64,000 nucleotides of DNA. Origin: Pythium myriotylum (taxonomy: Eukaryota; Oomycota; Peronosporomycetes; Pythiales; Pythiaceae). Positions within the stretch are counted from its first letter, which is position 1, and each line of letters starts with the position of its first letter. Position numbers and translations under genes: made by a program. The notes under the pieces were generated by a model that was given only the letters and a program-made list of their open reading frames with translations, searched no databases and was not told where the DNA came from. Positions 16,937-51,582 of the stretch are shown here, in pieces. The DNA lies in contig JALJCQ010000030.1 in the NCBI GenBank assembly GCA_023091665.1, positions 870,501-934,500 on the forward strand. The letters are read 5' to 3'.

Positions 16937-18949
16937 ATGCGCGACGGGTTCCGCCGCGCGTCGCCGCCGCGCGAGCACCGCCCGCCGCGGGACTTTCTCT
17001 ACACCAAGCACTTCGTCGCGCTGGCCGACTACGCGCGCGACTACAAGAGCGGGCTCGTCCAGAGCTACGCCAAGCTCTCCAAGGACGAGAAAAAGGCCAA
17101 ATTCGGCGTCTCGATCGTGCCCATTTTCGTGCCGCTCGCGCCCGGCGAGACCGCCGAGCAGTACGAGGCGCGCTTCGTCGCGTGGCTGCAGCGCAAGCAG
17201 GGGCTCTCGCTCGCCGACGTGCGCAAAGACCCGGACGAAACGGCCGAGCGCGTCCTCCGGATCCGCTTCGCCGGGCTCAATGGCACTGGCGCTGAGCGCT
17301 TCCAGCCCGAGACGGCGAGCGATCGGAAGACGAAGCGAGACGGTGCGAGCCACAAGTCGACGCGCTCGCCGTCGCCGTCGTCGTCACGACGAGTCCACTC
17401 GAGCCGTGGCCACAAATCCTCCGACTCGCTCTCCCCGACACGCGCCGTGTCTCGAGACCACGCGGCGAGACGCTCGAGAAACCAGTATTATGTCAAGAAG
17501 TACGTCGAGCTGGATCAGTACATAATCGACTACAAGAATCACAAGATCGATGGGTACATGAAACTGACGGAAGCTGAGAGGCTCGAGCTCTTTGGCTCGC
17601 CGATCGTGCCCATCCACGTGCCACTTGCCCGAGGTGAATCGATGCGGCAGTACGAAGAACGGTTTATTGAGTGGCTTCGAGAACAAGGTGTCAGTCTCGA
17701 TGAGCTCGCGAACGATACGGATCTTTTGCTGGAAAGAAACTACCGTGTCAAGTTCGCTAATCTCAATGCGAAAGGAGTTGTTGGCTTCCGGCTACCGACA
17801 CGGAAGCGCGCACGATCTCCCAGTAAAGCTAGCCCACGCCCAGAAAAAAAGCCCGTTGCGGTGAAAGGTGAAACACAACAGTCTCAGCATGCTTCGGAAG
17901 GTGAAACGCAAAAGTCTTCCCAAACTCCTTCAACAAAATCTCCTATCACAATCTCGTCAACCAAGAAGCCGTTAGAAGACAAAGCCCACGGGGATTGCAT
18001 ATTCGTCGCACCTCCCGCTGATACATCCACGTCGTTAGTCGCAGCGGCGTACATCGAATGTGGTTGCAGGCAATGCCTCGTTCAAGGAATGAGACATCTC
18101 AGCGAGAAGATCTCGGAACTTGATCGAAGCAGCAGCGAGACGAGTGGATCAAAATCACCTGACCATTCGAAGACCCGAAGCGTTGTAGATCTGACTGAAG
18201 ACGACGATCCTCAATCACCCAAGTCCCCAAAGAGCAAGTCATCTTTGTTCGCAGACGCCGTCGCTCGTCTTCTTTCAGCACCGGAAACTGCAGCTGACCT
18301 TCAGAAGCAAGTGTCGATCGATCCAACAAAAACTCGTCCGGAAAGGATTTCTGACGACCCTGTCGAGAACCAGCTTGTCAACGAATACCAGACAATCAAC
18401 GAGCGAGTTCTGAATATGGAAACGCAGCTGAGCGACCTCGCGGCAAGGCTGGCAAGCACGTCGGCGACCCATACCTCTGATATCTCTCGTCTTCAAAACA
18501 GAAGCCAAAAGGTGCGCGATGCGATTCAAAAAGAATGGGATGACCGCAGCGCTGCGCTTGCGATGCTTGTCGTGTACATGTGGCGTCAAAGTCAAGAAGA
18601 TCTCACAAGCATCATCGACAGCGAAAAAGTCGTCAATGTTCTCCACATTCAGCGCTCAAGTCATAAGAAGTGTTCGGTATTGTCTACCACAATCAACGAA
18701 ATACGAACAACAATAATCCGCTTAAAGGCGAAGATTGATTGCGTGATGAACAATCATGCATCACCGAACACGGATACTTTCACCAGCCACTTGGACACGC
18801 TCACTCAACTCGGCGAGCAACTAACAGCGGCAGAGAAGGAACTGTGTGGCCTCGTTGGTTTGCGCAAAAGAGAGATCACAAACATCATTCGTTACGACGA
18901 GAAGCTGCGCTTACTTATCAAGACGCTGCTCACAAGTGGCAGTTGTTAG
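16937..18949 (+). CDS. Array member 1: two type B modules, CGCxxC, SIM-like motif, coiled coil
   Basis: 670 residues from the first ATG; the frame extends 5' only to a GTG. Type B modules lie at about 20-125 (SIVPIFVPLAPGETAEQYE) and 184-290 (SPIVPIHVPLARGESMRQYE). Each ends in ER, then RIRFA or RVKFA, and a GxxxF segment. They are joined by a Ser/Arg/His-rich linker. CGCRQCLVQGM is at about 375 and VVDLTEDDD at about 416 (18182-18208). The last 190 residues are predicted coiled coil with the family signature AALAMLVVYMWR. The VVDLT-acid motif fits a SUMO-interacting motif; this is inference from the motif only. The 5' part to about 17420 is visibly more GC-rich than the rest. It starts 62 bp after the methyltransferase stop. 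I do not recognise the family outside this window. Confidence 0.82.
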   Translation: MRDGFRRASPPREHRPPRDFLYTKHFVALADYARDYKSGLVQSYAKLSKDEKKAKFGVSIVPIFVPLAPGETAEQYEARFVAWLQRKQGLSLADVRKDPDETAERVLRIRFAGLNGTGAERFQPETASDRKTKRDGASHKSTRSPSPSSSRRVHSSRGHKSSDSLSPTRAVSRDHAARRSRNQYYVKKYVELDQYIIDYKNHKIDGYMKLTEAERLELFGSPIVPIHVPLARGESMRQYEERFIEWLREQGVSLDELANDTDLLLERNYRVKFANLNAKGVVGFRLPTRKRARSPSKASPRPEKKPVAVKGETQQSQHASEGETQKSSQTPSTKSPITISSTKKPLEDKAHGDCIFVAPPADTSTSLVAAAYIECGCRQCLVQGMRHLSEKISELDRSSSETSGSKSPDHSKTRSVVDLTEDDDPQSPKSPKSKSSLFADAVARLLSAPETAADLQKQVSIDPTKTRPERISDDPVENQLVNEYQTINERVLNMETQLSDLAARLASTSATHTSDISRLQNRSQKVRDAIQKEWDDRSAALAMLVVYMWRQSQEDLTSIIDSEKVVNVLHIQRSSHKKCSVLSTTINEIRTTIIRLKAKIDCVMNNHASPNTDTFTSHLDTLTQLGEQLTAAEKELCGLVGLRKREITNIIRYDEKLRLLIKTLLTSGSC

Positions 18950-18983
18950 TATAACTGTTGAACGTGAACTTGGGCCTATTCTC

Positions 18984-19866
18984 ATGCTGCCTGCGGCACT
19001 TCCCATCATTTGCGGTTTTGGAGTAAACAAGTTAGACATGAAGCGCGACTTCAACGGCGGAATCCTCCCTTCGAAGAAGAAGCTACTCAGGCAACGGATT
19101 CTGCCCATCGGGGACTACGCAAATGAGCTCACCAGAGGCTCTAAGTTCACCAAACCCATTTGTGCCCAGCTCTACGGCTCAAAGGTTACGCCGATCCCGG
19201 TGCCGATGACTCGTCACGAGAGTTTAGCGAGCTACGAAGAACGTTTTCGTGAGTGGTTGCTGTCTGAAAAGAAGTCGAAGGTGGAAAACTTGAAAGAGAA
19301 TCCGATCCAAGAGCGGAACTATCGGTTGTACTTCGCGCGGATGCAAGTCCGAGATTACAAGGTGCCGATGAACAGGAGCATCAGTCCGAAGTCCTCAACT
19401 GAATCTATCCTAGTTTCTTTCCCTGACGAAGAAGTCGAGGTGACAAATCAAGCCTTGGTAGACAGTCGAAACTCAGCTCTCGATGGAGCTGTTGATGGTT
19501 CCAGTGAGAGAAGCGAGATTGCTGATGATCCGTCAAGAAAGAAGCGCCGTGTCGGTCTGAACGGAGAACATACTAGTTCAGATATTGACGCACTAGAGGG
19601 TCATGTGGTGCCTCATGATCAAGTAGTCAAGTCTCGTGAAGGCCCTGAGATGCCGTCGGAGTCTGAGATTGTGCAGCTAGTTCTGCTACTGTGGAAGAAT
19701 CACGTCGTAGAGTTAGAGGCTTTACTCAAGGACTCCCAGCCCCGAAGTAGAGTCTAGGTCTATGAGGCGTCCTCAAGCAGCGAGGCATACATTAAAATTT
19801 CTCTTGGGCTTCGACGCGCGACTACGTAAGCTGGTTCAAGAAGCCCTCGATGTGGTGAAGGTTTGA
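18984..19866 (+). pseudogene. Array member 2: decayed copy, type A module and frameshifted C-terminal remnant
   Basis: An open frame runs from ATG 18984 (or 19038) to the stop at 19755-19757. It has one type A module (LLRQRILPIGDYANEL, then VTPIPVPMTRHESLASYEER) and a charged linker. It then jumps directly to a short piece of the family coiled coil (VLLLWKNHVVELEALLKDSQ) without the cysteine motif or SIM-like motif. In another frame, 19789-19866 encodes LLGFDARLRKLVQEAL, the expected C-terminal end of the family. So the copy has lost internal sequence and picked up at least one frameshift. The truncated 239-257-residue product could still be made; there is no obvious intron that would rejoin the frames. 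Confidence 0.7.
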
Positions 19867-20043: not shown

Positions 20044-20514
20044 ATGGTAGAGCCACCCAGAGAGGCATTGCTACGACAGCGAGTGCTGCCGATTCGCGAG
20101 TACATGAACGAAATATGTGGTCGTTCCAAGATAACAAAGGCGGCTTCTCGTGTACTCTACGGGACCCCAACCGTGCCAATCGCGGTGCCTCTCAAGCCTG
20201 GAGAGACAGAAGAACAGTACGAGATTCGATTCCAGCGGTGGGTCTACCGCGAGCAAAGCCATTGGCTTGACGATCTGCGTGACCGACCAAATCTCGAGCG
20301 AGCTTTCCGAATCAGATTCGCTCGCGCGGAGACCAGAGCGTACTTGATGGAACTAGCGGAGCAACAGAACGGCCACGAAGACGGCCCGGACGTCAAAGAA
20401 GAAGAAAATGTAGAAGTGATGAACGAAGGCGAGCGGGCTCATCTTACCAAGCGCAATCGTGAAACGGAGAGCGAAGATGAGCCCCCTCTCCATCGCATCA
20501 AAGTGGAATTCTAG
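20044..20514 (+). CDS. Array member 3: short single type A module protein
   Basis: 156 residues from ATG 20044; the longer frame starts only at TTG. It holds one type A module (ALLRQRVLPIREYMNEI, then TVPIAVPLKPGETEEQYEIR, then NLERAFRIRFAR) and an acidic tail. There is no cysteine motif, SIM-like motif or coiled coil. The tail contains VKEEE and ends in IKVEF, which fits the hydrophobic-Lys-x-Glu consensus for SUMO attachment; this is a motif match only. It may be a natural short member that competes with long members, or a truncated copy. No remnant of the missing C-terminal part was recognised directly downstream. Confidence 0.65.
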   Translation: MVEPPREALLRQRVLPIREYMNEICGRSKITKAASRVLYGTPTVPIAVPLKPGETEEQYEIRFQRWVYREQSHWLDDLRDRPNLERAFRIRFARAETRAYLMELAEQQNGHEDGPDVKEEENVEVMNEGERAHLTKRNRETESEDEPPLHRIKVEF

Positions 20515-21012: not shown

Positions 21013-21441
21013 ATGACTCAAGCTATGCAGCTCCGGTCGCGACTCATCACGCTCTCCGCTTCATCCGGACCAACCCGCAGGCGCCGCATTCACCGATCTA
21101 AGCCGTACCAACGAGCCAATGCCAAAGCTCAAGCTCACGGCCGCGATTTCCCTGACGACACTTTCGCCGTGGTCGCTGGGGCTTTCGCGTGCGGCTGCTT
21201 TGACTGTCTCGCTTGTGCTCTGCGAGCCATCGAGAAGACCAAGTCGACGCGAGAAGGCTGCGCTTTGCGTGAGGATCGCATCGAGGGCTTCGACATGCTC
21301 GTCGCAGCGAGCTTCGTCTGCACGTGCAGAGACTGTCGCGCCCGTGCCATGCACGCGATCGCCGAGCAAGTGACCGCTCAGTGTCGTCCGGGATGCCCCC
21401 CACTCCGATGCACGCGCCTCATGCCCAAAGCAGAGACGTGA
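21013..21441 (+). CDS. Array member 4: small protein with two copies of the family cysteine motif
   Basis: 142 residues, ATG start. It lacks the VPIPVPL module and the coiled coil. It carries two spaced copies of the cysteine motif of the long members: FACGCFDCLACALRAIE near residue 58 and FVCTCRDCRARAMHAIAEQ near residue 100. The first 50 residues are basic. It sits 92 bp upstream of member 5, between family members, so it is best read as a partial duplication of the middle of the family, or a genuine stand-alone metal-binding small protein. A pyrimidine repeat (CT)n follows its stop. Confidence 0.5.
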   Translation: MTQAMQLRSRLITLSASSGPTRRRRIHRSKPYQRANAKAQAHGRDFPDDTFAVVAGAFACGCFDCLACALRAIEKTKSTREGCALREDRIEGFDMLVAASFVCTCRDCRARAMHAIAEQVTAQCRPGCPPLRCTRLMPKAET

Positions 21442-21532: not shown

Positions 21533-22855
21533 ATGAGTCTCCACGAATACGAAAACTGCGCACCACGTCGCTCAGACGGCGCACTCGCGCGGCGTGTGCT
21601 CTCGATCGCGACGTACGCGGCTGAGCTGCGCGACGGCGTCAAGCTCACGAGCGCGCAGTGTCTCAAGCTCTTCGGGTCGTCGACGCCGCCGATCCCTGTT
21701 CCGCTGCGACTCGGCGAGAGCGAAGCCATGTACGAAGAGAGCTTCTGCCGCTGGATGCACGACCAGAACAGGACTCTCATGCCGTTGAACGAGCGCAACT
21801 TCCGCACGGCGTTCGCGCAGATCCAGGCACACTACTACGACCAGAAAAACATCCCGTTCCCGTCGCATGCGCCACGCGGCGTCGAGAAGTACGGGCCGCA
21901 AGCCCAGGAGGTCGCAAGCAGCGCGAGGCAGAAACGAGCGCGGCGCTCGGACGCTCTGTACTATGACCACCACGCGGAGCCAGACACGTGTTCTGCCGTG
22001 CTTTCGGACGATGCGTCTTCGGCGTTGAAGATCCGTGCGTTCATTCGATGTGGCTGTAGCAAGTGCCAGCACCAGGGCGAGCACCTGGTTCTCGAGCTGC
22101 AAGAGAAGCTTCGTACTTATGAGAGCCACGACGCCGCTGTGTCTGTGATCGATCTCACGGAGGACGAGGCGACTCCGCGCAGCGTGGCGGAGGCGATCTC
22201 CAGCCTCGTGTGTGAAGACAGAACGAAGGACTTCCTGCTGGACGAAGCGAGAGTTCCCGCAGACAATGAAGAGTTCGAAGACACCGTGGAAGAGAGACTT
22301 CTGCGAGAATATGATCGAAGCAACGAGGAACTGGTAGTGAACCAAGGTGTTCTCGAGAGCTCAGCTGCTCAAGTCCGCGGCAATGACGCTGTTACAAGTC
22401 TTCAAGAACTCATTTCCTTGCAGAGCGACAACCAAGAGCTCCACGACGTGATCCAGGGTGAGCTCAAGCACCGCAACGCGGCGCTTGCCATGGTGATTGC
22501 ATACACGTGGCGCAACAACTCTTTGAAACTGGAGACTCTTCTAAACGACGACCGCGCGGGAAACTCGCCACACGTGCAACAAGCTCTCCACGTAAATCTA
22601 GACCGAATATTGAAGCATGAACGAGTGGTGAGAGCAAATATGGAACAAGTAAAGATACAAAGTGACAAAATTCTGGATTGTCGAGCGGCGGATCGGAGCG
22701 AATCCTTGAGGCAAATGGGAGCCGAACTCGGTCAGTGCGAGCATCAGCTACGAAAACTTCGAGCGGAGAGAATGCAGGACATGGAGAATTTGATCATGTT
22801 TGACAAGAGCTTACGAGTGATGATTCGGACACTGCTTACGAGAGCAAGTGGGTGA
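21533..22855 (+). CDS. Array member 5: type A module, CGCxxC, SIM-like motif, coiled coil
   Basis: 440 residues, ATG start directly in frame. A single type A module lies at about 20-100 (LARRVLSIATYAAEL, then TPPIPVPLRLGESEAMYEE). CGCSKCQHQGEHL is at about 173, VIDLTEDEATP at about 205 (from 22145), and a long coiled coil at 250-438 with the family signature AALAMVIAYTWR. VIDLTEDE is one of the cleanest SUMO-interacting-motif matches in the array. The C-terminal end reads NLIMFDKSLRVMIRTLL, corresponding to TLIHFDERIR in other members. It is the last plus-strand member before the LRR-like gene interrupts the array. Confidence 0.82.
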   Translation: MSLHEYENCAPRRSDGALARRVLSIATYAAELRDGVKLTSAQCLKLFGSSTPPIPVPLRLGESEAMYEESFCRWMHDQNRTLMPLNERNFRTAFAQIQAHYYDQKNIPFPSHAPRGVEKYGPQAQEVASSARQKRARRSDALYYDHHAEPDTCSAVLSDDASSALKIRAFIRCGCSKCQHQGEHLVLELQEKLRTYESHDAAVSVIDLTEDEATPRSVAEAISSLVCEDRTKDFLLDEARVPADNEEFEDTVEERLLREYDRSNEELVVNQGVLESSAAQVRGNDAVTSLQELISLQSDNQELHDVIQGELKHRNAALAMVIAYTWRNNSLKLETLLNDDRAGNSPHVQQALHVNLDRILKHERVVRANMEQVKIQSDKILDCRAADRSESLRQMGAELGQCEHQLRKLRAERMQDMENLIMFDKSLRVMIRTLLTRASG

Positions 22856-25742: not shown

Positions 25743-27224
25743 TCAGATTCGCGCGAGAATGGCACGAACATACTGGCGAAGCTGCGCGTCGAAGTGAAGC
25801 AGCGTTTGGAAGAGCTCTTTTCGCATGGAGATCAATTCCGATATTCGAAACGCGTTGTTTGAGTCCACTGGTCCTTGCTTCCGAGTTGTAGGCAAAGCGA
25901 TTGCATTAGCAATGCGCGCAGCAATGTCGGCGCATTGCTGGTGGCATCGACGCTGGATATGCGGGACGTTGCCTGCGTTCTTAGCGTCGATCATCTTCTC
26001 CAGTTCAACAATTTGATCTCGCCATATCCACACGATAAGCATCGCCAGCGATGCATTTCGACTCGCAAACTCTCCCTCGATCAGCTCATACATCTCTTGG
26101 TTCTCATCCTGCAACTGAGTTGTCGCCTGTATGTCAACAATTGGATTGCTAACGAGTTGTTTCATAGACGCATCCAGAACACGCTCGTTCATCACGATCT
26201 GCTCGTTTACCATGTTGTACCGATCAACAAGCTGGTGTTCGAGGAGATCATGATCTTGGCAGCTGGGCTCCTCGATTCTCTCTTGAGTGAGATCCACTAT
26301 CTCGGGCTGTGGTACCGCTTCACTACGAATTGCAGTTGGTTGCTGCAGTCTGTGTTCGACACCGGAGATCTGCTCCGCTAGATTTTGGATCCCGGAGACG
26401 AGACATTGCTTGCACCCGCACGTGAGTCGCCCGCGTAAAGTCTTCCTTCCTGAACATTCGCGCCTGGCAATCTTAGAAGGCGTCGACTCGATTTTGTCGC
26501 CCAACGCACACTCGTCTCGAGTCGTCTCTTTTTTCGGTGGGGGAATGAACTTTTCAGATCCCTTGGCGTTCGCTGTAGCGAACCTCATCCTCATGAAACG
26601 CTCCCGGATCTGAATTGGGTGATCGATTAGTTCTTGAAGAGTCATGCCGTGCTCCCTCTTCAGCCACCGAAGAAAACGCGCCTCATACATCTCTTTGGAC
26701 TCGCCTTGCGCCAGCGGCACAAAGATCGGAGGGTAGGGCGAGCCGAACAATTCCCGCTTCTCCGAAAAGCTCATACGTCCATACTTTTTGAAGCGCCCTT
26801 GCTTCGAATCTCTCCTGTACTCGTCAATGTCCATATACTCGTGGACCAACATCAGCTCGCGCGTGGATTTCGCGGCCTTCTCGTCATGTAGTTGCTGTTG
26901 ATTGCCGTCAACACTCTTGGATTCTTTAAGTTCCGTCGTCTTCATCGACTGGGCACGGCGAGACGACGGCAGAGGCGCGTCAATATCAATCCTCTCGCTA
27001 CCGCCACCCACAGAATCAGCGCCGCTTGTCGACCTCATCACGGCGTCGTGCCGGGATCGCGCGGACGGCAGCGGTGCATTGATGTCGAGAGCCGGGTACG
27101 ACTCGTCGTAGTCCATAGAGTCGGACTCGCTGCTGGGCTCTGCGACGTGTGAACTCACGGCGCTGACGCGACGCCGCGCGGTCGGCAGCGGCGCGTCGAC
27201 GTCGAGCGTTCTCTTCTTGTTCAT
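25743..27224 (-). CDS. Array member 6: N-terminal DAPLP repeats, type B module, CGCxxC, SIM-like motif, coiled coil
   Basis: 493 residues from ATG 27224. An upstream ATG at 27257 would add 11 residues, but it overlaps the promoter-like element GCGAACCTAAT. That element lies 31 bp before 27224, exactly as it does before member 8. The N-terminus has three spaced copies of a short motif (LDVDAPLPTAR, LDINAPLPSAR, IDIDAPLPSSR). A type B module follows (SPYPPIFVPLAQGESKEMYE). CGCKQCLVSGI and IVDLTQERIEEP come next, then the coiled coil (ASLAMLIVWIWR). It is the only member of the left part of the array on the minus strand, divergent from member 7. The DAPLP repeats are not seen in any other member. 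Confidence 0.8.
   Translation of the reverse strand: MNKKRTLDVDAPLPTARRRVSAVSSHVAEPSSESDSMDYDESYPALDINAPLPSARSRHDAVMRSTSGADSVGGGSERIDIDAPLPSSRRAQSMKTTELKESKSVDGNQQQLHDEKAAKSTRELMLVHEYMDIDEYRRDSKQGRFKKYGRMSFSEKRELFGSPYPPIFVPLAQGESKEMYEARFLRWLKREHGMTLQELIDHPIQIRERFMRMRFATANAKGSEKFIPPPKKETTRDECALGDKIESTPSKIARRECSGRKTLRGRLTCGCKQCLVSGIQNLAEQISGVEHRLQQPTAIRSEAVPQPEIVDLTQERIEEPSCQDHDLLEHQLVDRYNMVNEQIVMNERVLDASMKQLVSNPIVDIQATTQLQDENQEMYELIEGEFASRNASLAMLIVWIWRDQIVELEKMIDAKNAGNVPHIQRRCHQQCADIAARIANAIALPTTRKQGPVDSNNAFRISELISMRKELFQTLLHFDAQLRQYVRAILARI
27178..27208 (-). repeat. First of three DAPLP motif copies in member 6
   Basis: Copies encode (L/I)D(V/I)(D/N)APLP(T/S)(A/S)R, at roughly 27178-27208, 27060-27090 and 26958-26990, spaced about 35-40 residues. 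The function is unknown; the pattern suggests a repeated docking peptide. Confidence 0.5.
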
Positions 27225-27255
27225 ATGCGCCTGTTTGATCTGTGGTGACCTCCTC

Positions 27256-27299
27256 ATTAGGTTCGCTTTTACAGTGTAGCCATCAGTGAAGTTCGCACG
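27256..27299. promoter_or_regulatory. Divergent promoter elements of members 6 and 7
   Basis: On the minus strand, GCGAACCTAAT (27256-27266) precedes member 6. On the plus strand, TGTAGCCAT (27275-27283) and TTCGCACG (27292-27299) precede member 7. The same words recur upstream of other array genes in the sense direction. Binding or initiation function is inferred from recurrence. Confidence 0.5.
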
Positions 27300-27412: not shown

Positions 27413-29269
27413 ATGCAGCTCGTGCCCGGCAGCCGCGAGGTCAGCTGGAACGCCAGTGGCCGCAGACCGACCAAGAGCGAGCTGCTGCGGCGGCGCGTGC
27501 TGAGTCTCGCGGCGTACGCGACGGAACTGCGGATCCAAACCAAGCCCTCGAAAGAAGAGCTGCTCCAGCGATACGGCACCACGATTGTGCCCATTCCGGT
27601 CCCTCTGTACCAGGGCGAAAGCGTCCAAGGTTACAGCGCGCAGTTTGCCGAGTGGGTCAAAGCGAGGAACGAAGATTGGGCGAAGATCAAAGCGAATCCG
27701 AATATGGAGCGAAGCCTGCGCATCATGTTTGCGAGGCAACGAGCCACCGAGCACGACTCGGCGAATGGCGAGACCCGCCAAGAGAGCGGCTCAGCCCGCC
27801 ACGACGCGAGCAAGAGTAGTTTTTGGAAAGCTCTATACACGAAGCGGTATGTTGATCTGGAGACCCACCAGAAAGACCATCGGGAAGGGAAGTTTGCTCA
27901 GGTCAAGACAATGACCAAGGCGGACAAGATAAGAGAGTTCGGCTCCTCGGTCATCCCAATCTTCGTTCCGCTTGCTCGCGGTGAGACACCGGAGGCTTAC
28001 GAAGGTCGTTTCAAGGAATGGCTCGAGAGGGAGCGAGGGATAACTTTCGAAGAGCTGAAAGCTGATCCGGACAAAGCGCGTGAGCGATATGAGCGGATTC
28101 AGTTTGCAAAGGCGAACGCGACAGGCCATGAGAGATTTATCGCTCCGGTTGATGCAACGCGCAAGCGAGAGAGGGCCATTGAGGTGGAGTGTGACGACGA
28201 TAACGACGAAGAGGCTCCACCATCGAAGAAACCCGCAATCTTTGAGAGGCTGGGCCCATCCTCAGTGACAAGCGAAGACGATCGCAGCGATTCTCTTTCT
28301 TTCGATAGGGGAGAAGATATCGCGGCTTTCACTGTTCCGCCGTCTCCGATGAATAAGTGCTCTGTACAGCTTCCCGCTGAAGGCTCTCCGATCCCAGATC
28401 AGATCGCTGCTTTTGTTGCGTGTGGCTGTCAAAAGTGCATGCGAAACGGTTTACTCCGGGTCTCCGAGGCCCTTAGCGAGCACACAGTGAGAAAACAACC
28501 CGAGATAGGCGAGTTCAAGCAAGCAAGCCATGAGGAAACGACGGTGGACTTAAATCGTGATCTAAACCCACAGTCTGCCGCAGCTATCACGAAATTTGTC
28601 ATGTCCAAACCCTCTTTTGCTGAACTCAATAGTGAGATATCTTCAGCGGTAAAACACCAACCGACTCGACTTACTGATGACGCTGTGGAACGACAGCTCT
28701 TTGGTGATTACGATGCGATCAATGAACAGATCCTCGCAAACGAAAACGTTGTCGACGCCTCCGCCACCGAGATTGCGAGCACCAGAATCGACGATATTGA
28801 AGGGACAACCCAGCTTCAAGACGAAAACGAGGAGATGCGTGAGCTAATCGAAGAGGAAGTCAACAATCGCAACGCAGCGCTGGCCTTGATGATCTTCTAC
28901 GTTTGGCGTCACGCACAAGTCGACTTGGAAGGCTTAATAGAGGACGACCGGGCGGGCCACGTGGTCCACATTCAGCGTGCGAGCCATCGAAAGCTGGCCG
29001 ATCTAGCCAAGGAGATCGAAGAATGCCGGACCAGAATTGCTTCGATAAAGAGCCAGCTAGACACTATCCTCGCAGCCGAATACAGCGATGACGACGCAGG
29101 CGAAGCCAATCGGCTGGGTGAGCTTTCTCGCGTCGGTGAGCTCCTCACGAGCACTGAACACGAACTCCACCAGCTTCAGGACCAACGACGACGGGAACTT
29201 GTGACGCTCATCCACTTTGACGAGCGGATACGGCTGCTCGTGCAGGCTTTGCTTGCTCGCGTGCCGTGA
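27413..29269 (+). CDS. Array member 7: type A plus type B modules, CGCxxC, coiled coil
   Basis: 618 residues from ATG 27413; the frame extends four codons 5' to a TTG only. It has the complete architecture. Type A is at about 20-105 (TTIVPIPVPLYQGESVQGY) and type B at about 140-245 (SSVIPIFVPLARGETPEAYE). CGCQKCMRNGL is at about 337, TVDLNRDL at about 376, and the coiled coil at about 420-617 (AALALMIFYVWRHAQ). The motif at the SIM position has Asn where others have Thr (VDLN) and fewer acids after it, so SUMO binding would be doubtful here. The end reads TLIHFDERIRLLVQALLAR. This member and members 9, 13 and 14 define the two-module form. Confidence 0.83.
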   Translation: MQLVPGSREVSWNASGRRPTKSELLRRRVLSLAAYATELRIQTKPSKEELLQRYGTTIVPIPVPLYQGESVQGYSAQFAEWVKARNEDWAKIKANPNMERSLRIMFARQRATEHDSANGETRQESGSARHDASKSSFWKALYTKRYVDLETHQKDHREGKFAQVKTMTKADKIREFGSSVIPIFVPLARGETPEAYEGRFKEWLERERGITFEELKADPDKARERYERIQFAKANATGHERFIAPVDATRKRERAIEVECDDDNDEEAPPSKKPAIFERLGPSSVTSEDDRSDSLSFDRGEDIAAFTVPPSPMNKCSVQLPAEGSPIPDQIAAFVACGCQKCMRNGLLRVSEALSEHTVRKQPEIGEFKQASHEETTVDLNRDLNPQSAAAITKFVMSKPSFAELNSEISSAVKHQPTRLTDDAVERQLFGDYDAINEQILANENVVDASATEIASTRIDDIEGTTQLQDENEEMRELIEEEVNNRNAALALMIFYVWRHAQVDLEGLIEDDRAGHVVHIQRASHRKLADLAKEIEECRTRIASIKSQLDTILAAEYSDDDAGEANRLGELSRVGELLTSTEHELHQLQDQRRRELVTLIHFDERIRLLVQALLARVP

Positions 29270-34453: not shown

Positions 34454-35498
34454 GACGACGAGCTACGCCTGGGCAAGTTTACGACCGATCAGAAGATTCA
34501 AAAGTTTGGCACTGAGATCGTGCGGATTCCCATGCCACGACATCCCCGAGTGATGACGACTCTCAACGACTAATAAGGAGTGGTTTATGGACCTAAGGTT
34601 GGATTTGATGACTTGCGAGCAGCGTGAGGAACGGTTTGGGTGTCGTGAGATCCCGATCTTTGTTCCTCTTGCTCCTAGCAAAACTGCAGAGCATTATGAA
34701 AGGCGGCTCACTGCTTGGCTCATCACTTCCCTCCGACAAGACCCAAGCAATACGAAATCGTTGCGCTCTCTTCTTCGAAAGGAGCGCCCACGTCGGGATT
34801 TCGCCAAGCTGAGTGGTTTGGGAGTCGTACGATACGATCCAGAGAACCAGGGTGATGTTGAGGCAACAATCGAACAGCACAAACGTCGGCGATCTCTGCA
34901 CCTGGGAGCTGATCGGTCAGTAGAAGAATTCCCCGTGAAACGCCAAAGGCTTGAAGACCAGGGAAACACGAGTGAGAGCACACCAAACAGTGAGGGGAAA
35001 TCTTCCTCAAGTCATTCGAGTAATTGTCGGTGCTATCAGTGTCTCGTTCGCGATGCTTCTGCATTATCAACTAGAACCGGTGCGCTCGCAACCGCAGGAG
35101 ATACAGGCCAACACCGTTGACGACGTAAACCAGATCTTAGTCGAAAACGCGGTGTTGCTCGAGTACATCAACGGGGAGCGTGGACACCGATGTTCAGTGC
35201 TAGTGGAACTGATCATGGTTGTGTAGAGACACCGCATGGATGATTTGAAGCGAATAGCCGAAAGCAAGGGAGCACAGGACTCCGTGCGTGCGTATGGCAA
35301 CGGTCACTCGAACTGCTACGTGATATTCACCGCAATCTTACAAAAAAGCGAGATAGTATTCATTTTCTCCAGATAACGCACTCCAAGGACTCCGAGGCCT
35401 CGGTTGATACCGAGCTCCGGCGACTCGACGACGAAGTCCATCAACTACGAGACCGCCAGCGACGAGAGATCGAGGCAATGGTTTGCAGTGGTGGCTAG
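34454..35498 (+). pseudogene. Array member 11: decayed type A plus type B copy
   Basis: Family pieces follow each other in the right order but in different frames. A type A remnant at 34454-34573 (LRLGKFTTDQKIQKFGTEIV, stop TAA). A type B module and cysteine motif in an open frame from ATG 34587 to 35120 (REIPIFVPLAPSKTAEHYE; CRCYQCLVRDA). A coiled-coil piece ending at 35226 (VNQILVENAVLLEYINGERG) in a third frame. A C-terminal piece at 35406-35498 (LRRLDDEVHQLRDRQRREIE). At least three frame breaks or deletions separate them. The 177-residue middle frame could be expressed alone. The cysteine motif is closest to members 12 and 13, so this copy belongs to that subgroup. Confidence 0.75.
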
Positions 35499-39118: not shown

Positions 39119-39168
39119 CCATGCGTACTTTATGGAGAGCTACGCAATGGCCAGTTCTTGAGCTGCTG

Positions 39169-41189: not shown

Positions 41190-41751
41190 ACAGGAGATGA
41201 TCCGATCGAGAAGCAACCTCGCGTTCACTACGACGAAATCAATGATTCTGTGGCCTCGGAACTCCATCAACTGGACGAGTTGCCATCGCACCGTGTCGCG
41301 ATTGAGATTTCACCAATGAGCCCCTATGCGAGCTGTCTAAGAAGACAAGGCAATACTGCCCCGACCATGCTCATTGTCTACTTGCGGCACCACCGCGCAG
41401 GAGACTGGAGGCAGCGTGTTCAGAACGCCTCGTCCACCGACGTGGCCCACGTTCACCGAGCCTGGTACCGCAACCTCCACTTCACGGCCATGAAAGAAGA
41501 CTGTCCGCAGACTCAATTGACCACGTCGTGGAAGCGACAGCTCGACCTAATAGTGTGCTTCATGCACCTCCAGAGTCTCAAAGTGAGGACGTTGAAGTTG
41601 TTCGTATCGAGAAGCTACAACGTCTCGGCGAGGAGCTCAACGCGAGTGGAAGCCCTCCAGGACCACGATTTGCTCAGCTCCAGCCCGCGAGCTCACGACG
41701 CTGCGACATTTCGACCACGAGACCATTGGGCTGCTCGGGAGCGAGACGTAG
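41190..41751 (+). pseudogene. Array member 15: C-terminal coiled-coil remnant
   Basis: Only the C-terminal part of the family is recognisable, in more than one frame: DDPIEKQPRVHYDEIND, then APTMLIVYLRHH and DVAHVHRAWYRN, then VRIEKLQRLGEELNA in another frame, and finally ELTTLRHFDHETIGLL ending at TAG 41749-41751. The longest open frame across it starts only at TTG (41079). The wording is closest to members 16 and 17, which lie beyond the two inserted genes, so this remnant may mark an old array edge. No modules or cysteine motif were found upstream. The 270 bp between member 14 and this remnant hold nothing recognisable except a short direct repeat of CTTGCGAGG. Confidence 0.7.
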
Positions 41752-45419: not shown

Positions 45420-47321
45420 TCAGGTCTCGCTGAGCAGCGTGACAACGAGTTCTCGCACGTGGGCGTCGAAGTGGATGAGCGTCGTGAGCTCTCGCCTCCG
45501 TGCCGAGTGGGCGGTGGCCACAGACTGCTCGGCTGCAGTGAGTTCGTGGCCGATTTGCTGTAATTTCTGAAGCCGCACTTTCTCACCGTCTTCGTGAGCC
45601 TCGGACGGTTCACTGAGCACATCGTCCAACTGCTGCTTCAGAGAGGCTGCGTGGGTCTGGTAATGGCTCAGCTCTAATGCAAGTGTGTGGCATTTAAGAT
45701 GGCACGCTCGCTTGACGTGGACCACGTCTGTTGCCGTGGGACTCGTGACTCGCTCCTGGAGTTCCTCAGGCGCATGACGCCACACGTAGACGATAAGCAT
45801 GGCAATCGCAGCGTTACGGTGGTCCATCTCGTCCTCAATGAGCCCTCGGAGCTCTAGGTTCTCGTCCTGGCTCAGCGTGGCCTGCTGGATATGGTCCGAG
45901 GACATGTCCTGCAGCTGGACCGCCGAGTGTTCGAGTACTCGCTGGTTCATTACGATACGGTCATTGATTTCGTCGTATTGAGCTTTCAGCTGCTGCTCAA
46001 TCGGATCGTCAGACCCACGAGAAGCCTCTCGCTGTCTCCGACTTCGGATCAGCGAGGTCACCTGCAACATCCTAGCGACGTCCACACCTTTGACTTCCCT
46101 CAGTGGTGGTGGTGGAGTGTCTGTGTCCCGCGTGAGGTCCATGACGGGTTTCGTCGACTCGTTCACCGTAGTCGGAGCATTCTGCTGTAGCTCTGCGACC
46201 ACTCGTACAAGTCGACTCGTACATCGTAAGAGGCGTTTGCGACAGCCACATGCGAGGTATGCTTTTGGCACGGCCCCATCCGCTGAGCCAGGCGGTGGAG
46301 ACTTAAACGAGCACCGCGTCGGGAACTCGAGCGCCGGGTCCGCTCGCTCGGGAACTGGCTCCACTGTCGCTGTTGGAAGAGAACGGGACGATATTCCCAA
46401 CGAGAGAGTTTCAGAGTCACGGTCATCAACACCACGACGCACATCGCCAACTCGGTCGAGTACACTGGGTTTTGCAGTGGTGACCTCTACCTCCCTACCC
46501 GTTGGAGCCACTGGTGTTGGGATCTTCCCCGTGAGCCTCTTCCTTGCAAACAACATGCGCTTCGATCTTTCAGTGTTTGGCTCGTCAGCAAGGCGAGCTA
46601 GATCCATGGACACTGACGACAGCGACGCTAGGAACTTGCTCTCGTACTGTTCAAATGTCTCGCCTGGGAACAGCGGCACGGGGATTGGCTCGGTCGTCGT
46701 GCCGTAACGCTGTCTGCGCTCTCCCTCGGTGAGCTTGGGGCCTTTCGCCTCCCGACGGTACTCACTGACACTGAGAACTCGCTTGCGAAGCAGAATATCC
46801 GCGCTCGCAGGCGCCCTATCCTTCCGCACGCGCTTGATCTCTGCCTCCTCTGCATCTTCCTCCAGCACGGTGCGGCTGCGCTTCGCACCCGACGATGCAG
46901 AGCTGCTCGCGTGGTCTTTCATCCACGACGTCGTCTTGTGCTTCGCAAACGACGTGCGCAGACTGCGTTCTTTGTTCGCATCGCTTCGGAGATCGGCCAG
47001 CGCGTAGCCTCGCTCGCGCAGCCATTCCACGAAGCTCCGCTCGTGGTCGTGCTCGCTCTCGCCAGGCAGCAGCGGCACCGGGATCGAGATCGTGTTGCCG
47101 CCGTAGATCCGGATCCGGTCGGCGGCCGAGAGCGACGCGTTGCCCCCTCGACGCAGCTCGTTCGCGTGCTTGGCGATCGGCAGCACTCGCCGCTTGAGCA
47201 GAACGCTCCGCGCAGCGCTCGAGCCACGCGACGAGCCCGCCGAATGGGACGACGAGACGCTCGCCGTGTCGCTGTAGCCCACGACGCGGCTCGCGCGAGG
47301 AGGCAGCTCCAAGTTGTCCAT
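45420..47321 (-). CDS. Array member 16: two type A modules, altered cysteine motif, SIM-like motif, coiled coil
   Basis: 633 residues from ATG 47321; the longer frame begins at TTG. Type A modules lie at about 35-125 (LLKRRVLPIAKHANEL, then NTISIPVPLLPGESEHDHER) and 175-260 (LLRKRVLSVSEYRREA, then TEPIPVPLFPGETFEQYE). The cysteine motif reads CGCRKRLLRC: the third Cys of CGCxxC is replaced by Arg, although a Cys follows four residues on. PVMDLTRDTDTPPP is at about 393, then the segment GVDVARMLQVTSL shared only with member 17. The coiled coil spans about 440-632 (AAIAMLIVYVWRH) and ends TLIHFDAHVRELVVTLL. It follows CWC24 on the same strand. Confidence 0.83.
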   Translation of the reverse strand: MDNLELPPRASRVVGYSDTASVSSSHSAGSSRGSSAARSVLLKRRVLPIAKHANELRRGGNASLSAADRIRIYGGNTISIPVPLLPGESEHDHERSFVEWLRERGYALADLRSDANKERSLRTSFAKHKTTSWMKDHASSSASSGAKRSRTVLEEDAEEAEIKRVRKDRAPASADILLRKRVLSVSEYRREAKGPKLTEGERRQRYGTTTEPIPVPLFPGETFEQYESKFLASLSSVSMDLARLADEPNTERSKRMLFARKRLTGKIPTPVAPTGREVEVTTAKPSVLDRVGDVRRGVDDRDSETLSLGISSRSLPTATVEPVPERADPALEFPTRCSFKSPPPGSADGAVPKAYLACGCRKRLLRCTSRLVRVVAELQQNAPTTVNESTKPVMDLTRDTDTPPPPLREVKGVDVARMLQVTSLIRSRRQREASRGSDDPIEQQLKAQYDEINDRIVMNQRVLEHSAVQLQDMSSDHIQQATLSQDENLELRGLIEDEMDHRNAAIAMLIVYVWRHAPEELQERVTSPTATDVVHVKRACHLKCHTLALELSHYQTHAASLKQQLDDVLSEPSEAHEDGEKVRLQKLQQIGHELTAAEQSVATAHSARRRELTTLIHFDAHVRELVVTLLSET

Positions 47322-47426: not shown

Positions 47427-47441
47427 AAAGACCATGGTTTG

Positions 47442-49502
47442 CTACGAGGACTCGCGCAGCAGCGTCTCTACGAGCTCGCGGACGTGGGCGTCAAAGTGGA
47501 TCAGCGTCGTGATCTCTCGTTTCCTTGCAGCGTAGAGAGAAGCGATCTCTTGCTCGGCCTGGGTGAGTTCGCGGCCGATGCTTTCGAGCTTGGCCAGTCG
47601 CGAGGTCTCCTGCTCCGTCTCAGCTGCCTCTCCTGTCAACACGTCTTCAAGCTGCTTCTTAAGCGTCACGACATGCGTCCGCTTCTGAGACAGTGTAGTT
47701 GCTAAAGTCCTAACTTTGGCGTGGCACACTCGCTGCACGTGGGGGACGTTGGACGCTTGGGGACTGTGTACGCGCTGCAAGAGCTCGTCACGCTCGTTGC
47801 GCCACATGTACACGACGAGCATCGCAAGGGCAGCGTTACGGTGGTCCATCTCGTCTTCGACCATCGCTTCCAGCTCCTGCGTGGCTCTCTGAGTCGATGA
47901 CACTTCGCTGATTCGGTCCACAGGAGTGCCTTCAAGCTGAGCGGTCAAGTTTGCCACAGTGAGCTCGTGGAGTCCCACACGAGCGTTGATCTCGTCATAC
48001 TGGGTTTGGAGTTGCAGCTCGATGGGATCGTCACGAGGCGCAGATTCAGATGGCCTTCCTGTTGTGGCTTGGCGACTCCGGCGGGTTTTCATCAGCGAGG
48101 TGATCTGAATCATTTTCGAGATATCGACGCCAGTGCTCTTCGTCTCTTTGGTAGGATCTTGTGTTCCAGTTACTGAAGGCGTGACTGTGCGCGCAGGAGT
48201 ATTCTCAAGCGCCTCAATTTTATCAACTATCTGAGAAGTGCACTTGACCAGGCAGTCTTGACAGCCACACGCGAGAAACGCGCGCAGTGCACTGGATGTG
48301 CCTGAGCCTTTTTCGGTTTTCAGTGAGCACACAATGGGCACTCCACGTGACTCGTGGTAACCTCTTTCCGTGGCCGGTGGAGAATGATAACTCACTGGTG
48401 GATCACTGATAGGCTCAGCCTTAATCACAGCCGGCTCCTCCTTCTTGAGATCGGCTTTGGTTCGCAAACTCGTAATAATATCGCGTGCATCTTGAAAAGG
48501 CTCAGGTTTGACAGCGACAAATACACGCCTATCGCTGTCGTCATCTGTCACGCTTACCCGATTTCTCATCTCATGGTTAGAGAAGAAGGTACGAGTTAAG
48601 CGGCTTCTCGCGAACCTGATACGAGCTGATCGTTCGACGTTAGGCTTGTTCTCGAAAATGGCCGGATCCATTTTTAGCGACCGGTAGAAGTCACGCTCGT
48701 ACTCATCGATGGTTTCGCCTGCGTAAAGAGGAACGGGGATCGGTGCGACTGTTGTGCCATAGAGCCGTTTCAAGTCTGCCTTGGTCGGTTTCGTGCCGCG
48801 ATCCCGCTCTTCCTCTGCCTGGAACTGTTCAATGGACACCACGCGCTTCCGCAACAGAAGATCGGCACCAGGAACATTCGGCGGGACGTTTCTTTGGCGC
48901 TTTGGGCGCGATCCCTTTTCCACGAAGTCATCATCTTCCTCATAGTCATCGTCGTGTTCTTGAACTTCGTCATCTTCCTCGTCTTCCAGTTCATCGCGCG
49001 AGTCCTCATTGTCTTCTTCATCTTCCTCTTCGTACTCGTCGCGACGACGCTTGCCTCTTAGCCTGTCCTTCACGAGACTTCCATTATCGTATCGACGCAC
49101 TTTAAAACGCGCAAACTCCATGCGCAATCGCCGCTCGTCGGCAGCGTTGACGAGGTCAATCTCGATGCGTCGGCTCGCGAGCCATCCTAGAAACCTCTTC
49201 TCGTGCGAGGCTTCGGTCTCACGTGGCTCGAGCGGCACGGGAATTGGCACGATTGGCGTGCCAAACTCCTCTGTACGTTCTTCGTCTCGCCAGCGCTCGG
49301 GCCCGCCGTTGACCAGCTCGTCGGCGAACTCGTGGATGGTCAGGATCCGGCACTTGAGAAACGGGTTCCCATAGGCGCGGCTACTTCGCGACTCCACTGA
49401 GGACGCCGAGTCGCTCGTAGAATGTCGCACCGGCGGTCTTTTGGAGCTGCTGGGCCGACCCGACGGACGCGGCGGCATCACGAAGTCGTCGATCGAGCTC
49501 AT
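47442..49502 (-). CDS. Array member 17: two type A modules, acidic linker, CGCxxC, coiled coil
   Basis: 686 residues, ATG start; the longest member. Type A modules lie at about 42-125 (TPIVPIPVPLEPRETEASHE) and 218-305 (TTVAPIPVPLYAGETIDEYE), separated by a very acidic linker of Glu/Asp runs. Between the second module and the cysteine motif are VAVKPEPF and AVIKAEPI. Both fit the hydrophobic-Lys-x-Glu consensus for SUMO attachment. CGCQDCLVKCTSQIV is at about 411. There is no VDLT motif; instead GVDISKMIQITSLMKTRR, shared with member 16. The coiled coil spans about 495-684 (AALAMLVVYMWR) and ends TLIHFDAHVRELVETLL. So this member may be a SUMO target rather than a SUMO binder (inference). Confidence 0.84.
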   Translation of the reverse strand: MSSIDDFVMPPRPSGRPSSSKRPPVRHSTSDSASSVESRSSRAYGNPFLKCRILTIHEFADELVNGGPERWRDEERTEEFGTPIVPIPVPLEPRETEASHEKRFLGWLASRRIEIDLVNAADERRLRMEFARFKVRRYDNGSLVKDRLRGKRRRDEYEEEDEEDNEDSRDELEDEEDDEVQEHDDDYEEDDDFVEKGSRPKRQRNVPPNVPGADLLLRKRVVSIEQFQAEEERDRGTKPTKADLKRLYGTTVAPIPVPLYAGETIDEYERDFYRSLKMDPAIFENKPNVERSARIRFARSRLTRTFFSNHEMRNRVSVTDDDSDRRVFVAVKPEPFQDARDIITSLRTKADLKKEEPAVIKAEPISDPPVSYHSPPATERGYHESRGVPIVCSLKTEKGSGTSSALRAFLACGCQDCLVKCTSQIVDKIEALENTPARTVTPSVTGTQDPTKETKSTGVDISKMIQITSLMKTRRSRQATTGRPSESAPRDDPIELQLQTQYDEINARVGLHELTVANLTAQLEGTPVDRISEVSSTQRATQELEAMVEDEMDHRNAALAMLVVYMWRNERDELLQRVHSPQASNVPHVQRVCHAKVRTLATTLSQKRTHVVTLKKQLEDVLTGEAAETEQETSRLAKLESIGRELTQAEQEIASLYAARKREITTLIHFDAHVRELVETLLRESS

Positions 49503-49595: not shown

Positions 49596-49610
49596 TTGTG
49601 GCGAAGCTCT

Positions 49611-50486
49611 CTAAGATCCATTGGCTGTCGGCCGTTCCTCAATGGTGGCCAGCTTGGCCGTCAGCTCTGCGACACACTGATGGAGGCACTCGTCACAGCC
49701 GCAGTCAAGGCGCCACGCGACAGTTGCAGTGTGTGTGGTAGATTGGCATCGTGGAGTCGTCTCGGATGCGTCGCTGACTTCGCCACTCTCCATTGATGAC
49801 ACGTCGCTCGCGTCCTCAGTGACTTGCGTGCTGGCAGCCAATTGCGGTTGCCAAGGAATGAACCGCTCAATTCCCTTTGCATTGAGTCGAGCAAAGCGCA
49901 GGCGCCACCCTCGCTCTGCATATTCGTTACGATGGGTTTGCAGTTTGGCGAGCGACCTGCCGCTCCGTCTCAACCAAACGGCAAACCGCCGCTCATACTC
50001 CTCTTCGGTCTCGCCAGGAGCCAGCGGCACAGCGATAGGGACAATTGTCGCACTAAAGAGTCTGATTTTGTCGTCACGTGAGAGAGCCTGGTAGTCCATC
50101 GTCGCGAGCTCGTGCTTGTAGTCGTCCAAGTGCACCACCCGGGTCCGGTAAAGCACATCTCGAGGCGGCCGGACCCGAAATGGTGATCTACTTCGCGACT
50201 GTCTGTATTTCCGGCGATCTAAACTTCTGCTTCGACTTCGATCTCGACTTCGGCTTCGGCTTCTGCTTGTGCCTCTGCTTCTGCTTCTGCTTGTACCTCT
50301 GGTTCGGCTTCGGCTTCCATTTAGACCCCGACTTAAACTTCTGCTTCTGCTTCTGCTTCTGCTTGGGCTTGTGCTTCTGCTTGTGCCTCTGGTTCGGCTT
50401 CGGCTTCTACTGTGGCGCAAGCGTGGGTGGAAGTCTTCATCTCTATCGAATCGACTTAACGAATAATTGTAGCGCCGCCCGTGCAT
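49611..50486 (-). CDS. Array member 18: SR-rich N-terminus, type B module, CGCxxC, no coiled coil
   Basis: 291 residues, ATG start. Residues about 25-105 are runs of RS, SR and RT dipeptides, like the RS domain of splicing factors. A type B module is at about 115-215 (SATIVPIAVPLAPGETEEEYE, then LRFARLNAKGIERF). The cysteine motif CGCDECLHQCVAEL is at about 263, and the protein ends 25 residues later. There is no SIM-like motif or coiled coil. The RS region comes from a hexanucleotide-like repeat in the DNA. A nuclear-speckle location is plausible from the RS domain but not shown. Its 3' end is 108 bp upstream of member 17. Confidence 0.8.
   Translation of the reverse strand: MHGRRYNYSLSRFDRDEDFHPRLRHSRSRSRTRGTSRSTSPSRSRSRSRSLSRGLNGSRSRTRGTSRSRSRGTSRSRSRSRDRSRSRSLDRRKYRQSRSRSPFRVRPPRDVLYRTRVVHLDDYKHELATMDYQALSRDDKIRLFSATIVPIAVPLAPGETEEEYERRFAVWLRRSGRSLAKLQTHRNEYAERGWRLRFARLNAKGIERFIPWQPQLAASTQVTEDASDVSSMESGEVSDASETTPRCQSTTHTATVAWRLDCGCDECLHQCVAELTAKLATIEERPTANGS
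50218..50412 (-). repeat. Low-complexity repeat encoding the RS region of member 18
   Basis: On the plus strand it is a run of imperfect CTTCGG / CTTCTG hexamers, which code for Arg-Ser pairs on the minus strand. It is likely to vary in length between strains. Confidence 0.65.
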
Positions 50487-50712
50487 GGTTTCGAGGAAAT
50501 CGGAGAATCGGAAGCACCGCTTTAATCCTTCTTTGTGATGTGAAGGAGCTGGTTCAGTCGGCTTTTTTTGCTGGGAATGAGCTCAAGAGGCCCGCGCAAT
50601 CCAAGAGGGAAGATGATGATGCGGTACAGCTGCACATCTCCCATTGAACTTAACGTGCGACAGAAACATTCTCCCGAGATGGCTAAACCGTGTTGGCATC
50701 TCGCAATGGAAA

Positions 50713-51582
50713 CTATTGATTAACAACTCGTGGCGACTGAGTGTCGTCATCCAGTGTGAGATCTACAACTCTATGCGCCGTCTTGGCAACTTTCGACTTG
50801 GATTCAAGCTGCTGGAGCCTCTTGTCCATCAATCCCATAGCAGCGAAGAGGCACGGAGAACATCCGCACTCCAAGTGAGCAGCGATCGCACTTGCAGGTG
50901 ATGTGCCTGTGAGATCCTGCTTGAGCACACAAGTGCTGAGTGGTTTTGTACCGCTAGACAGCTTGGCTTTCGTTGCTTCGCTTTTGTCTTCCTTCACTGC
51001 ACTAGCCTCCAGCTTTGTGTTGGGTTTGGAATCGCGAGTTCCGTCCTCTTCAACTCTATTCGACTTGCGACCGTCTCGATCGTCATAGCTGTTCCTCTCC
51101 CGAGACCGCGACCTCGATCGCGACCTGGACCTTGTCAATTTTGAAGGCGACCGCGACCTGGATCTGGTCGATCGAGAAGGTGACCGCGATCGTCTCGAGC
51201 GACATCTCTTCTGATCAGCCTTCCAGTCGTCGTACCGCTCGGCGCCGACCGAGTTTGCGTTCGCGAACGCGATGCGCCTCGATCGCTCCTCGTAGAAGTG
51301 GCTGTCCCTCAGCTCTTCGAGGCTCTCTCCTTGGCCATGCAGCCACTCAATGAACCGCTCTTCGTACTCGTCCATAGTCTCACCCGACGCGAGCGGCACG
51401 AAGATGGGCATCGTGCCCGTGCCGAACATGGCCACTTTGTCATTGTACGTGAGGTTGGCGAACTTGCCCGCGCGAAAGTCGGCGCGGTACTTGTGCAGAT
51501 CCACGGGCTGCAGCACGTACATCGCTGGATGGCTCACGCCGCGCACGGTACGTGGCGATGGCGGTCGGTCACGCCTGCTCAT
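50713..51582 (-). CDS. Array member 19: type B module, RS stretch, CGCxxC, C-terminal SIM-like motif
   Basis: 289 residues from ATG 51582. The frame is open further 5', but that part crosses the promoter-like element and looks non-coding. The type B module is at about 22-120 (GTMPIFVPLASGETMDEYEE, then RRIAFANANSVGAERY). An RS-rich stretch lies at about 125-165. CGCSPCLFAAM is at about 238. VVDLTLDDDTQSP is at about 271, close to the C-terminus. The coiled coil is absent: the protein stops right after the SIM-like motif. VVDLTLDDD is among the best SUMO-interacting-motif matches here, with three following acids and a possible phospho-Ser. It forms the right edge of the array. Confidence 0.8.
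   Translation of the reverse strand: MSRRDRPPSPRTVRGVSHPAMYVLQPVDLHKYRADFRAGKFANLTYNDKVAMFGTGTMPIFVPLASGETMDEYEERFIEWLHGQGESLEELRDSHFYEERSRRIAFANANSVGAERYDDWKADQKRCRSRRSRSPSRSTRSRSRSPSKLTRSRSRSRSRSRERNSYDDRDGRKSNRVEEDGTRDSKPNTKLEASAVKEDKSEATKAKLSSGTKPLSTCVLKQDLTGTSPASAIAAHLECGCSPCLFAAMGLMDKRLQQLESKSKVAKTAHRVVDLTLDDDTQSPRVVNQ

Follow-up and report, generated by a model that had tools for sequence, protein, structure and literature searches.

The genome of the oomycete Pythium myriotylum raises the question of what a long run of related, unnamed genes might do. These genes lie within a stretch of 64,000 nucleotides (hereafter the window; GenBank assembly GCA_023091665.1, contig JALJCQ010000030.1, positions 870,501 to 934,500 of the forward strand), which is part of a 3.36-Mb contig, here C30, in a genome of 58.7 Mb in 55 contigs. 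An original prediction, made from the letters of the window, described a tandem array of an unrecognised, modular and rapidly evolving family. The reading favoured here, with modest confidence, is that the array encodes probably nuclear and probably oligomeric SUMO-binding scaffolds that would function like PML/TRIM proteins, the array being a branch with a new domain instead of B-boxes.

Architecture of the array proteins

Profiles of two parts of the proteins, a head module and a C-terminal domain, were run against all six-frame open stretches of at least 20 amino acids in the window. They detected 23 intact modules of about 95 amino acids (expect value, E, <= 3e-24) and 12 full C-terminal domains, together with two damaged modules at 34,572 (E 3e-13) and 35,797 (E 5e-9) and weak C-terminal remnants at about 19.7 kb (E 0.012), 35.0-35.5 kb (E 0.0004-0.003) and 41.2-41.7 kb (E 2e-6). 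The base-shuffled window gave no module match and one chance C-terminal match (E 0.63). Modules are of two types, A (PIPVPL) and B (PIFVPLA), and genes carry A, B, A+B, A+A or B+B. Because the module is the part that is duplicated, and in several combinations, a recognition role is suggested for it. In most genes the Cys motif has a further Cys about 20 residues upstream and a helix-like stretch after it. The modules, the CGCxxC motif, a VDLT-acid motif and the C-terminal helical part were all found where the original prediction had placed them, in loci that are, as it said, of mixed orientation.

The prediction that the core corresponds to no named domain is borne out, as no Pfam or NCBIfam family accounts for the modules. 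Every match in a Pfam scan of 10 array proteins fell below the curated cut-off, and in a per-domain scan each family was matched by at most 3 of the 23 modules or 1 of the 12 C-terminal domains. Seven NCBIfam families were matched by one member each (best E 0.0019) and none explains the module; among solved chains, none matches the module or the C-terminal domain by sequence below E 0.05. AlphaFold2 models were built on 23 (module) and 12 (C-terminal) rows, all from the window. The module model is confident (predicted local distance difference test, pLDDT, 91.6), with invariant Arg residues near or in its last helix, and Foldseek found no match for it in the PDB or BFVD. With a confident prediction but no fold that is recognised, the module merits structure determination. 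The C-terminal domain is modelled as an all-helical bundle (pLDDT 93.5) with only generic helical structure matches. Within Pfam, NCBIfam and structure searches the family is undescribed.

A candidate SUMO-interacting motif in the linker

The VDLT-acid motif lies in the linker that leads from the Cys motif to the C-terminal domain, and it has the form of a PIAS-type SUMO-interacting motif (SIM), [VI][VIM]DLT with acidic residues, a form that the original prediction overlooked. Its variants in the window are VVDLTEDDD, VIDLTEDE, IVDLTQE, TVDLNRD, MMDLTQ, LVDLTGAD, FVDLTEND, IVDVSSDEE, VMDLTRD and VVDLTLDDD, and in relatives from other sources (see below) VMDITRD, VVDLTEDDD and VMDLTQE; a VIDLT-type hydrophobic core with acids beside it, as expected of SUMO-binding proteins, is present in these linkers. 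Of 17 linkers, 13 have a SIM-like motif (those of 10 among 14 window genes and of all three relatives, P0001, P0002 and P0004); in 2000 shuffles the mean was 0.2 linkers and the highest number 3. The set of 17 omits loci 2 and 3, where the Cys motif is absent and no such linker exists. Elsewhere in the window the pattern occurs once in seven other frames (7,810 amino acids), without an acid flank.

The SIM of PIAS proteins is described as a VIDLT core with a C-terminal flank optimised for high affinity, in which the flanking acidic residues matter (PMC3901395). It is presented as among the tightest described (PMC3901395; PMC4907222), and (I/V)DLT cores are reported to favour SUMO2/3 (PMC4907222). 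The array motifs VVDLTEDDD and VIDLTEDE resemble it down to the flanking acids, although the 10 array proteins scanned have neither an SP-RING nor a SAP domain. The linkers also carry K[KR]x[KR], a pattern like that of a nuclear localisation signal (NLS), in 15 of 19 proteins as against 3.9 in shuffles. A SUMO gene is present in the genome: PF11976, the ubiquitin/SUMO-like family, has 26 matches, many of them ubiquitin-like repeats, and the match on contig C17 at 1.858 Mb, with exons that were joined by eye, has the nearest resemblance to SUMO chains of solved structure (best E 4e-25).

Dispersed relatives with B-box-like motifs

Searches of the P. myriotylum genome with six family proteins scored best candidates only, so that the counts are lower bounds; among these candidates, every module match lies within C30:887,446-922,112. 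The C-terminal domain alone also matches C30:1,023,346-1,023,921 (E 1.9e-8) and C30:1,323,666-1,324,232 (E 1.3e-5), and from the gene at the latter position a third relative was reached at C30:399,268-400,005 (E 1.5e-6). Reverse searches returned array members (E 6.9e-11, 6e-6 and 0.0038), and comparison of the array profile with the three genes, L060, L061 and L062, by hhalign gave E 2.2e-10, 3.3e-12 and 2.1e-6 over 156, 181 and 177 columns. To judge from these alignments, the C-terminal domain of the array is homologous to that of the three genes, which the original prediction had overlooked; all three share a contig with the array, and this contig makes up 6% of the genome.

Upstream of each of these C-terminal domains, on the same strand, there is a B-box-like pattern, in two copies in L060 and in one copy each in L061 and L062. 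The pattern is absent from the 64-kb window in any frame and from 50 shuffles of 20.5 kb, and the Cys knuckle of the array proteins, considered as a possible decayed B-box, has a spacing that does not fit it. The C-terminal helical bundle and the putative SIM are found in two settings, with B-box-like fingers in the dispersed genes and with the new module in the array.

The exon structures of the three genes were read by eye. L060 (C30:1,020,500-1,027,500, minus strand, about 4580-2820) has two B-box-like motifs, a SIM and the C-terminal domain; it carries VVDLTGDDDEDD plus five sites of the sumoylation pattern psiKxE (VKQE, IKME, IKSE, IKTE and VKSE), a number reached by none of 5000 shuffles. 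Its predicted layout would be PML-like, in an oomycete. L062 (C30:396,500-403,000, minus strand, 4416-2367) has a B-box-like motif, a SIM (VICIDDDSSDAE), the C-terminal domain and a glutamine-rich tail, and L061 (C30:1,320,500-1,327,500) has a B-box-like motif and the C-terminal domain. Beside L061 there are two identical, divergent frames of 139 amino acids (1092-1511, minus strand; 1930-2349, plus strand), which we take to resemble histone H2A.

Homologues in other species and the age of the array

Homologues were found in Pythium insidiosum (P0002, P0003) and P. oligandrum (P0004) and in one metagenomic protein (P0001), so that the family is not strictly lineage-specific as had been supposed. 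The Pythium homologues are annotated as hypothetical proteins (P43SY_004836, ATCC90586_003687 and Poli38472_005910) and share the module, the SIM and the C-terminal domain of the array. Each has a single module, whereas array genes may have two, and the two P. insidiosum models differ further in being joined to the neighbouring methyltransferase and in having no Cys motif. The precomputed tag PF27704.1 on P0002 and P0003 probably covers the methyltransferase half, since P0001 and P0004 are without it.

Among the paralogues of the array, identity does not exceed 53% in either the C-terminal domain or the module, and for the C-terminal domain its median is 33% when all pairs of the 15 compared sequences are taken. 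The closest pair has 1.5 synonymous (dS) and 0.38 nonsynonymous (dN) substitutions per site by the NG86 method, which places synonymous sites near saturation; dS was not computable for 44 of 66 pairs, and dN stays lower than dS, a pattern that fits long purifying selection. In phylogenetic trees, P0001 pairs with locus 17 (47,442-49,502) with supports of 100 and 98 for the two modules and 89 for the C-terminal domain, the last rising to 92 in a rooted tree. When rooted by the dispersed relatives, P0002 and P0004 group with loci 16 and 17 and P0001 (support 83). A single clade of all array genes and P0001 to the exclusion of P0002 and P0004 was rejected by the approximately unbiased test (p = 0.027), in one test under LG+G4; the trees rest on at most about 200 columns and their deep nodes are weak.

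On the pairing of P0001 with locus 17 and the rejection of the array clade, part of the duplication is estimated to have preceded divergence from P. insidiosum and P. oligandrum. The family is therefore older than the original prediction held, and the rapid birth-and-death evolution that it proposed finds no support, given that the best pair is only 53% identical, dS is saturated and monophyly of the array is rejected. A recent expansion was likewise considered and rejected, on the saturated dS and the orthology across species. The C-terminal domain is at most 40% identical to that of the homologues, as against 58% for the adjoining methyltransferase and its P. insidiosum counterpart, and for this reason the family seems to evolve faster than its neighbour.

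A proposed SUMO-binding scaffold

Each full-length member has one or two compact domains of about 95 amino acids, which under the favoured reading would form a recognition head. The linker that follows is disordered and has basic stretches like those of an NLS. Next come a Cys knuckle, in most cases C-x~20-CxCxxC and then a helix-like stretch, and the candidate SIM of PIAS type, through which SUMO-modified partners would be gathered; assembly would be the role of the long helices that form the C-terminal bundle. Members would differ in what the head binds. The array would be a duplicated and re-headed branch of a wider family in this genome, of which the three dispersed members carry B-box-like motifs instead. 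The analysis establishes the architecture, the enrichment of the motif, the homology of the C-terminal domain, the age of the array and the presence of a SUMO gene; SUMO binding, nuclear location, oligomerisation and the differing head targets are inferred.

PML carries a SIM and SUMO sites. In its functional logic the array family can be likened to the PML/TRIM (RBCC) proteins of animals, in which an oligomerising helical region is combined with a SIM and SUMO acceptor sites, a combination that is predicted here, and the dispersed relatives add B-box-like motifs to the likeness. TRIM/PML proteins also have an antiparallel coiled-coil dimer; for the array the corresponding observations are the all-helical model of the C-terminal domain and its generic helical matches. 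PML is described as assembling via its RING, B-boxes and coiled coil (PMC11589706). Differences are nevertheless evident: no RING was found by Pfam scan in 10 of the 16 open array frames, nor in the translated pieces of L060 to L062; B-box-like patterns are missing from all frames of the window, and the head of the array proteins is a different domain; the C-terminal profile has eight matches in the PDB at E <= 1, none of them a TRIM chain; and PML/TRIM proteins are animal, the array oomycete. The likeness is likely one of convergence. Because neither RING nor B-box, both defining features, was found in them, the array proteins are not classed as TRIM/PML, although they may work like them.

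Several observations weigh against the scaffold reading. The SIM pattern was defined only after the motif had been seen, and 4 of the 14 window genes (loci 7, 9, 17 and 18) are without it. Sites of the form psiKxE are only mildly enriched in the linkers (9 as against 3.2; the folded parts, although longer, have 6), and six of the nine are in two genes (locus 17 with four, locus 3 with two). Two open genes have no helical bundle. As for the dispersed genes, the B-box pattern was written after two of them had been seen, and the ANCHR-like B-box of Pfam stays below cut-off in the copies of L060 (E 0.002) and L062 (E 0.0006), the two that were scanned. L061 has neither a SIM nor a psiKxE site, and L062 reaches the array weakly in its own search (E 0.0038).

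If the conserved motif does bind SUMO, oomycetes would have a SUMO scaffold family with B-box-like relatives, which would be relevant to the question of a single or repeated origin of PML-like SUMO bodies. The reading gives an undescribed family, known so far as Pythium hypothetical proteins, a proposed SUMO-linked function that can be tested. It is a speculative and rather doubtful extension that oomycetes own a PML-body-like condensate system of SUMO and SIM, founded on the C-terminal helical bundle and with B-box, SIM and SUMO-acceptor members. One branch of it would have exchanged its B-boxes for a new fold and given rise to an old, diversified array of heads for recognition within the cell, as in genome or virus defence.

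Alternative explanations

The most tenable of the rivals, though unlikely, is that the family regulates transcription by binding DNA or chromatin: the module would be the DNA-binding domain, the bundle would serve dimerisation and the VDLT-acid motif would be an activation or co-factor motif and not a SIM. NLS-like motifs, present in the linkers of 15 of 19 proteins, the RS-rich stretches of two genes and the invariant Arg residues in or close to the module's last helix would all suit such regulators; yet the module has no above-cut-off match to a DNA-binding family and no confident fold match, and the acid motif is PIAS-type in form, with SIM-like motifs also in two of the dispersed relatives. 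SUMO binding and DNA binding are not mutually exclusive.

Tandem arrangement in a Pythium-like oomycete, with decayed copies, would also be expected of secreted, host-targeted effectors under fast birth-and-death, a reading that was rejected as very improbable: none of 16 window proteins has RxLR in the first 80 residues or LxLFLAK in the first 120, an N-terminal 10-residue hydropathy of 2, the sole signal measure used, is reached by one truncated frame only (18,984-19,757), and the paralogues are old and NLS-like motifs common. Another tandem oomycete family with broken copies is the mating-specific M96 family of Phytophthora (PMC5999078), which is described as having signal peptides, a His-rich (about 14%) and then a Gly/Ser/Tyr-rich (about 50%) composition and mostly species-specific clades (PMC5999078). 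Array proteins, in contrast, have 0-3.4% His in the N-terminal third and 9-21% Gly/Ser/Tyr in the rest, no secretion signal evident by hydropathy, and orthology across species.

A locally amplified domesticated transposon or viral gag-like gene, for which the decay of copies and the loosely gag-like combination of a helical region with a Cys knuckle could be cited, was also rejected and is hardly credible, as all module matches among the best candidates of the six own-genome searches are in one 35-kb locus, one single-protein scan of IMG/VR (which detects close relatives only) gave no relative, the module has no viral fold match, and the relatives are dispersed genes with B-box-like motifs.

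Extent and condition of the array

Eighteen loci were counted across 16,937-51,768. The array therefore lies where it had been predicted; the predicted count of 19 does not hold, and the nineteenth locus may be the free-standing frame at 21,013-21,441, with its two Cys motifs. Eleven loci are full-length and one has an in-frame stop between its first and second modules (35,797-37,395). Two short but open genes have no C-terminal domain (49,611-50,486 and 50,713-51,768), two are truncated open frames (18,984-19,757 and 20,044-20,514) and two are decayed (34,448-35,489 and 41,196-41,666). The 15 intact loci of the original prediction are reached only when the four short or truncated frames are counted as intact, and of its three decayed and one single-stop loci, the single stop was recovered and the decayed loci number two.

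An assembly artefact was rejected, as the copies are too diverged: no pair exceeds 53% identity in the module or the C-terminal domain, which speaks against assembly duplication. Most copies seem to be functional, to judge by their open frames, by the pattern of substitutions and by conservation of the motif. Loss of copies occurs as well, as the two decayed loci and the single stop show, but duplicates of recent origin are not seen.

Individual loci

On the plus strand, locus 1 (16937..18949; 670 amino acids) has two B-type modules, the Cys motif, the SIM VVDLTEDDD and the C-terminal bundle. Locus 2 (18984..19863) has an A-type module in a frame open to 19757 and a weak C-terminal remnant at 19732-19860, and locus 3 (20044..20514; 156 amino acids) has an A-type module only. 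The free-standing frame that follows (21013..21441, plus strand; 142 amino acids) has two CxCxxC motifs and possibly belongs to locus 3. Locus 4 (21533..22855, plus strand; 440 amino acids) combines an A module, Cys motif, the SIM VIDLTEDE and the bundle, and locus 5 (25743..27257, minus strand; 504 amino acids) a B module, Cys motif, the SIM IVDLTQE and the bundle.

The next loci, to the second decayed one, are all on the plus strand. A+B modules, the Cys motif and the bundle are common to locus 6 (27413..29269; 618 amino acids; motif TVDLNRD), locus 8 (31382..33049; 555 amino acids; MMDLTQ) and locus 13 (37472..39097; 541 amino acids; SIM FVDLTEND), the last with a second motif, EIDLTLEDESSDE, between its two modules. 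Locus 14 (39121..40917; 598 amino acids) likewise has A+B modules and the bundle, with two Cys motifs and IVDVSSDEE. Locus 7 (29358..30944; 528 amino acids) has a B module, two Cys motifs and the bundle and is without a clear SIM, and locus 9 (33090..34301; 403 amino acids) has a B module, Cys motif and bundle and no SIM. In the decayed locus at 34448..35489 a damaged B module and the Cys motif are accompanied by C-terminal remnants in several frames. The in-frame stop of the locus at 35797..37395 lies between its A and B modules, and the open part (35986-37395) retains the B module, Cys motif, an LVDLT SIM and the bundle. The second decayed locus (41196..41666) consists of C-terminal domain remnants only.

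The last four loci are on the minus strand. Locus 16 (45420..47321; 633 amino acids) has two A modules, CGCxxR, the SIM VMDLTRD and the bundle. Locus 17 (47442..49502; 686 amino acids), the orthologue of P0001, has two A modules, the Cys motif, four psiKxE sites and the bundle, a clear SIM being absent. Locus 18 (49611..50486; 291 amino acids) has an RS-rich N-terminus, a B-like module and the Cys motif, with neither SIM nor bundle, and locus 19 (50713..51768; 351 amino acids) a B module, an RS-rich linker, the Cys motif and the SIM VVDLTLDDD, without the bundle.

Neighbouring genes

A methyltransferase-like gene (15850..16874, plus strand; 318 amino acids) ends 62 bases before the array. Three stop-free introns are possible in it, of which 16260-16327 is the most likely and fits the relative. 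The product is 58% identical over 228 amino acids to P0002 and 50% over 306 amino acids to the second P. insidiosum model, with a weak match to Methyltransf_25. Because the methyltransferase and a family member form a single gene model in P. insidiosum, a location of the array shared with that species is suggested; the joined model is either a real fusion or a merged annotation.

Inside the array there are three other frames. Those at 23,103-25,253 (716 amino acids) and 42,364-44,028 (554 amino acids; apparently membrane-spanning by eye) have no Pfam match at E <= 0.01, and that at 44,156-45,052 has CCCH and RING fingers. Elsewhere in the window, an open frame of 4,013 amino acids (113-12154) has a single C2 domain match and is otherwise unexplained, and a bZIP protein (60417-61658) shows a weak SnoaL-like match in its second half.

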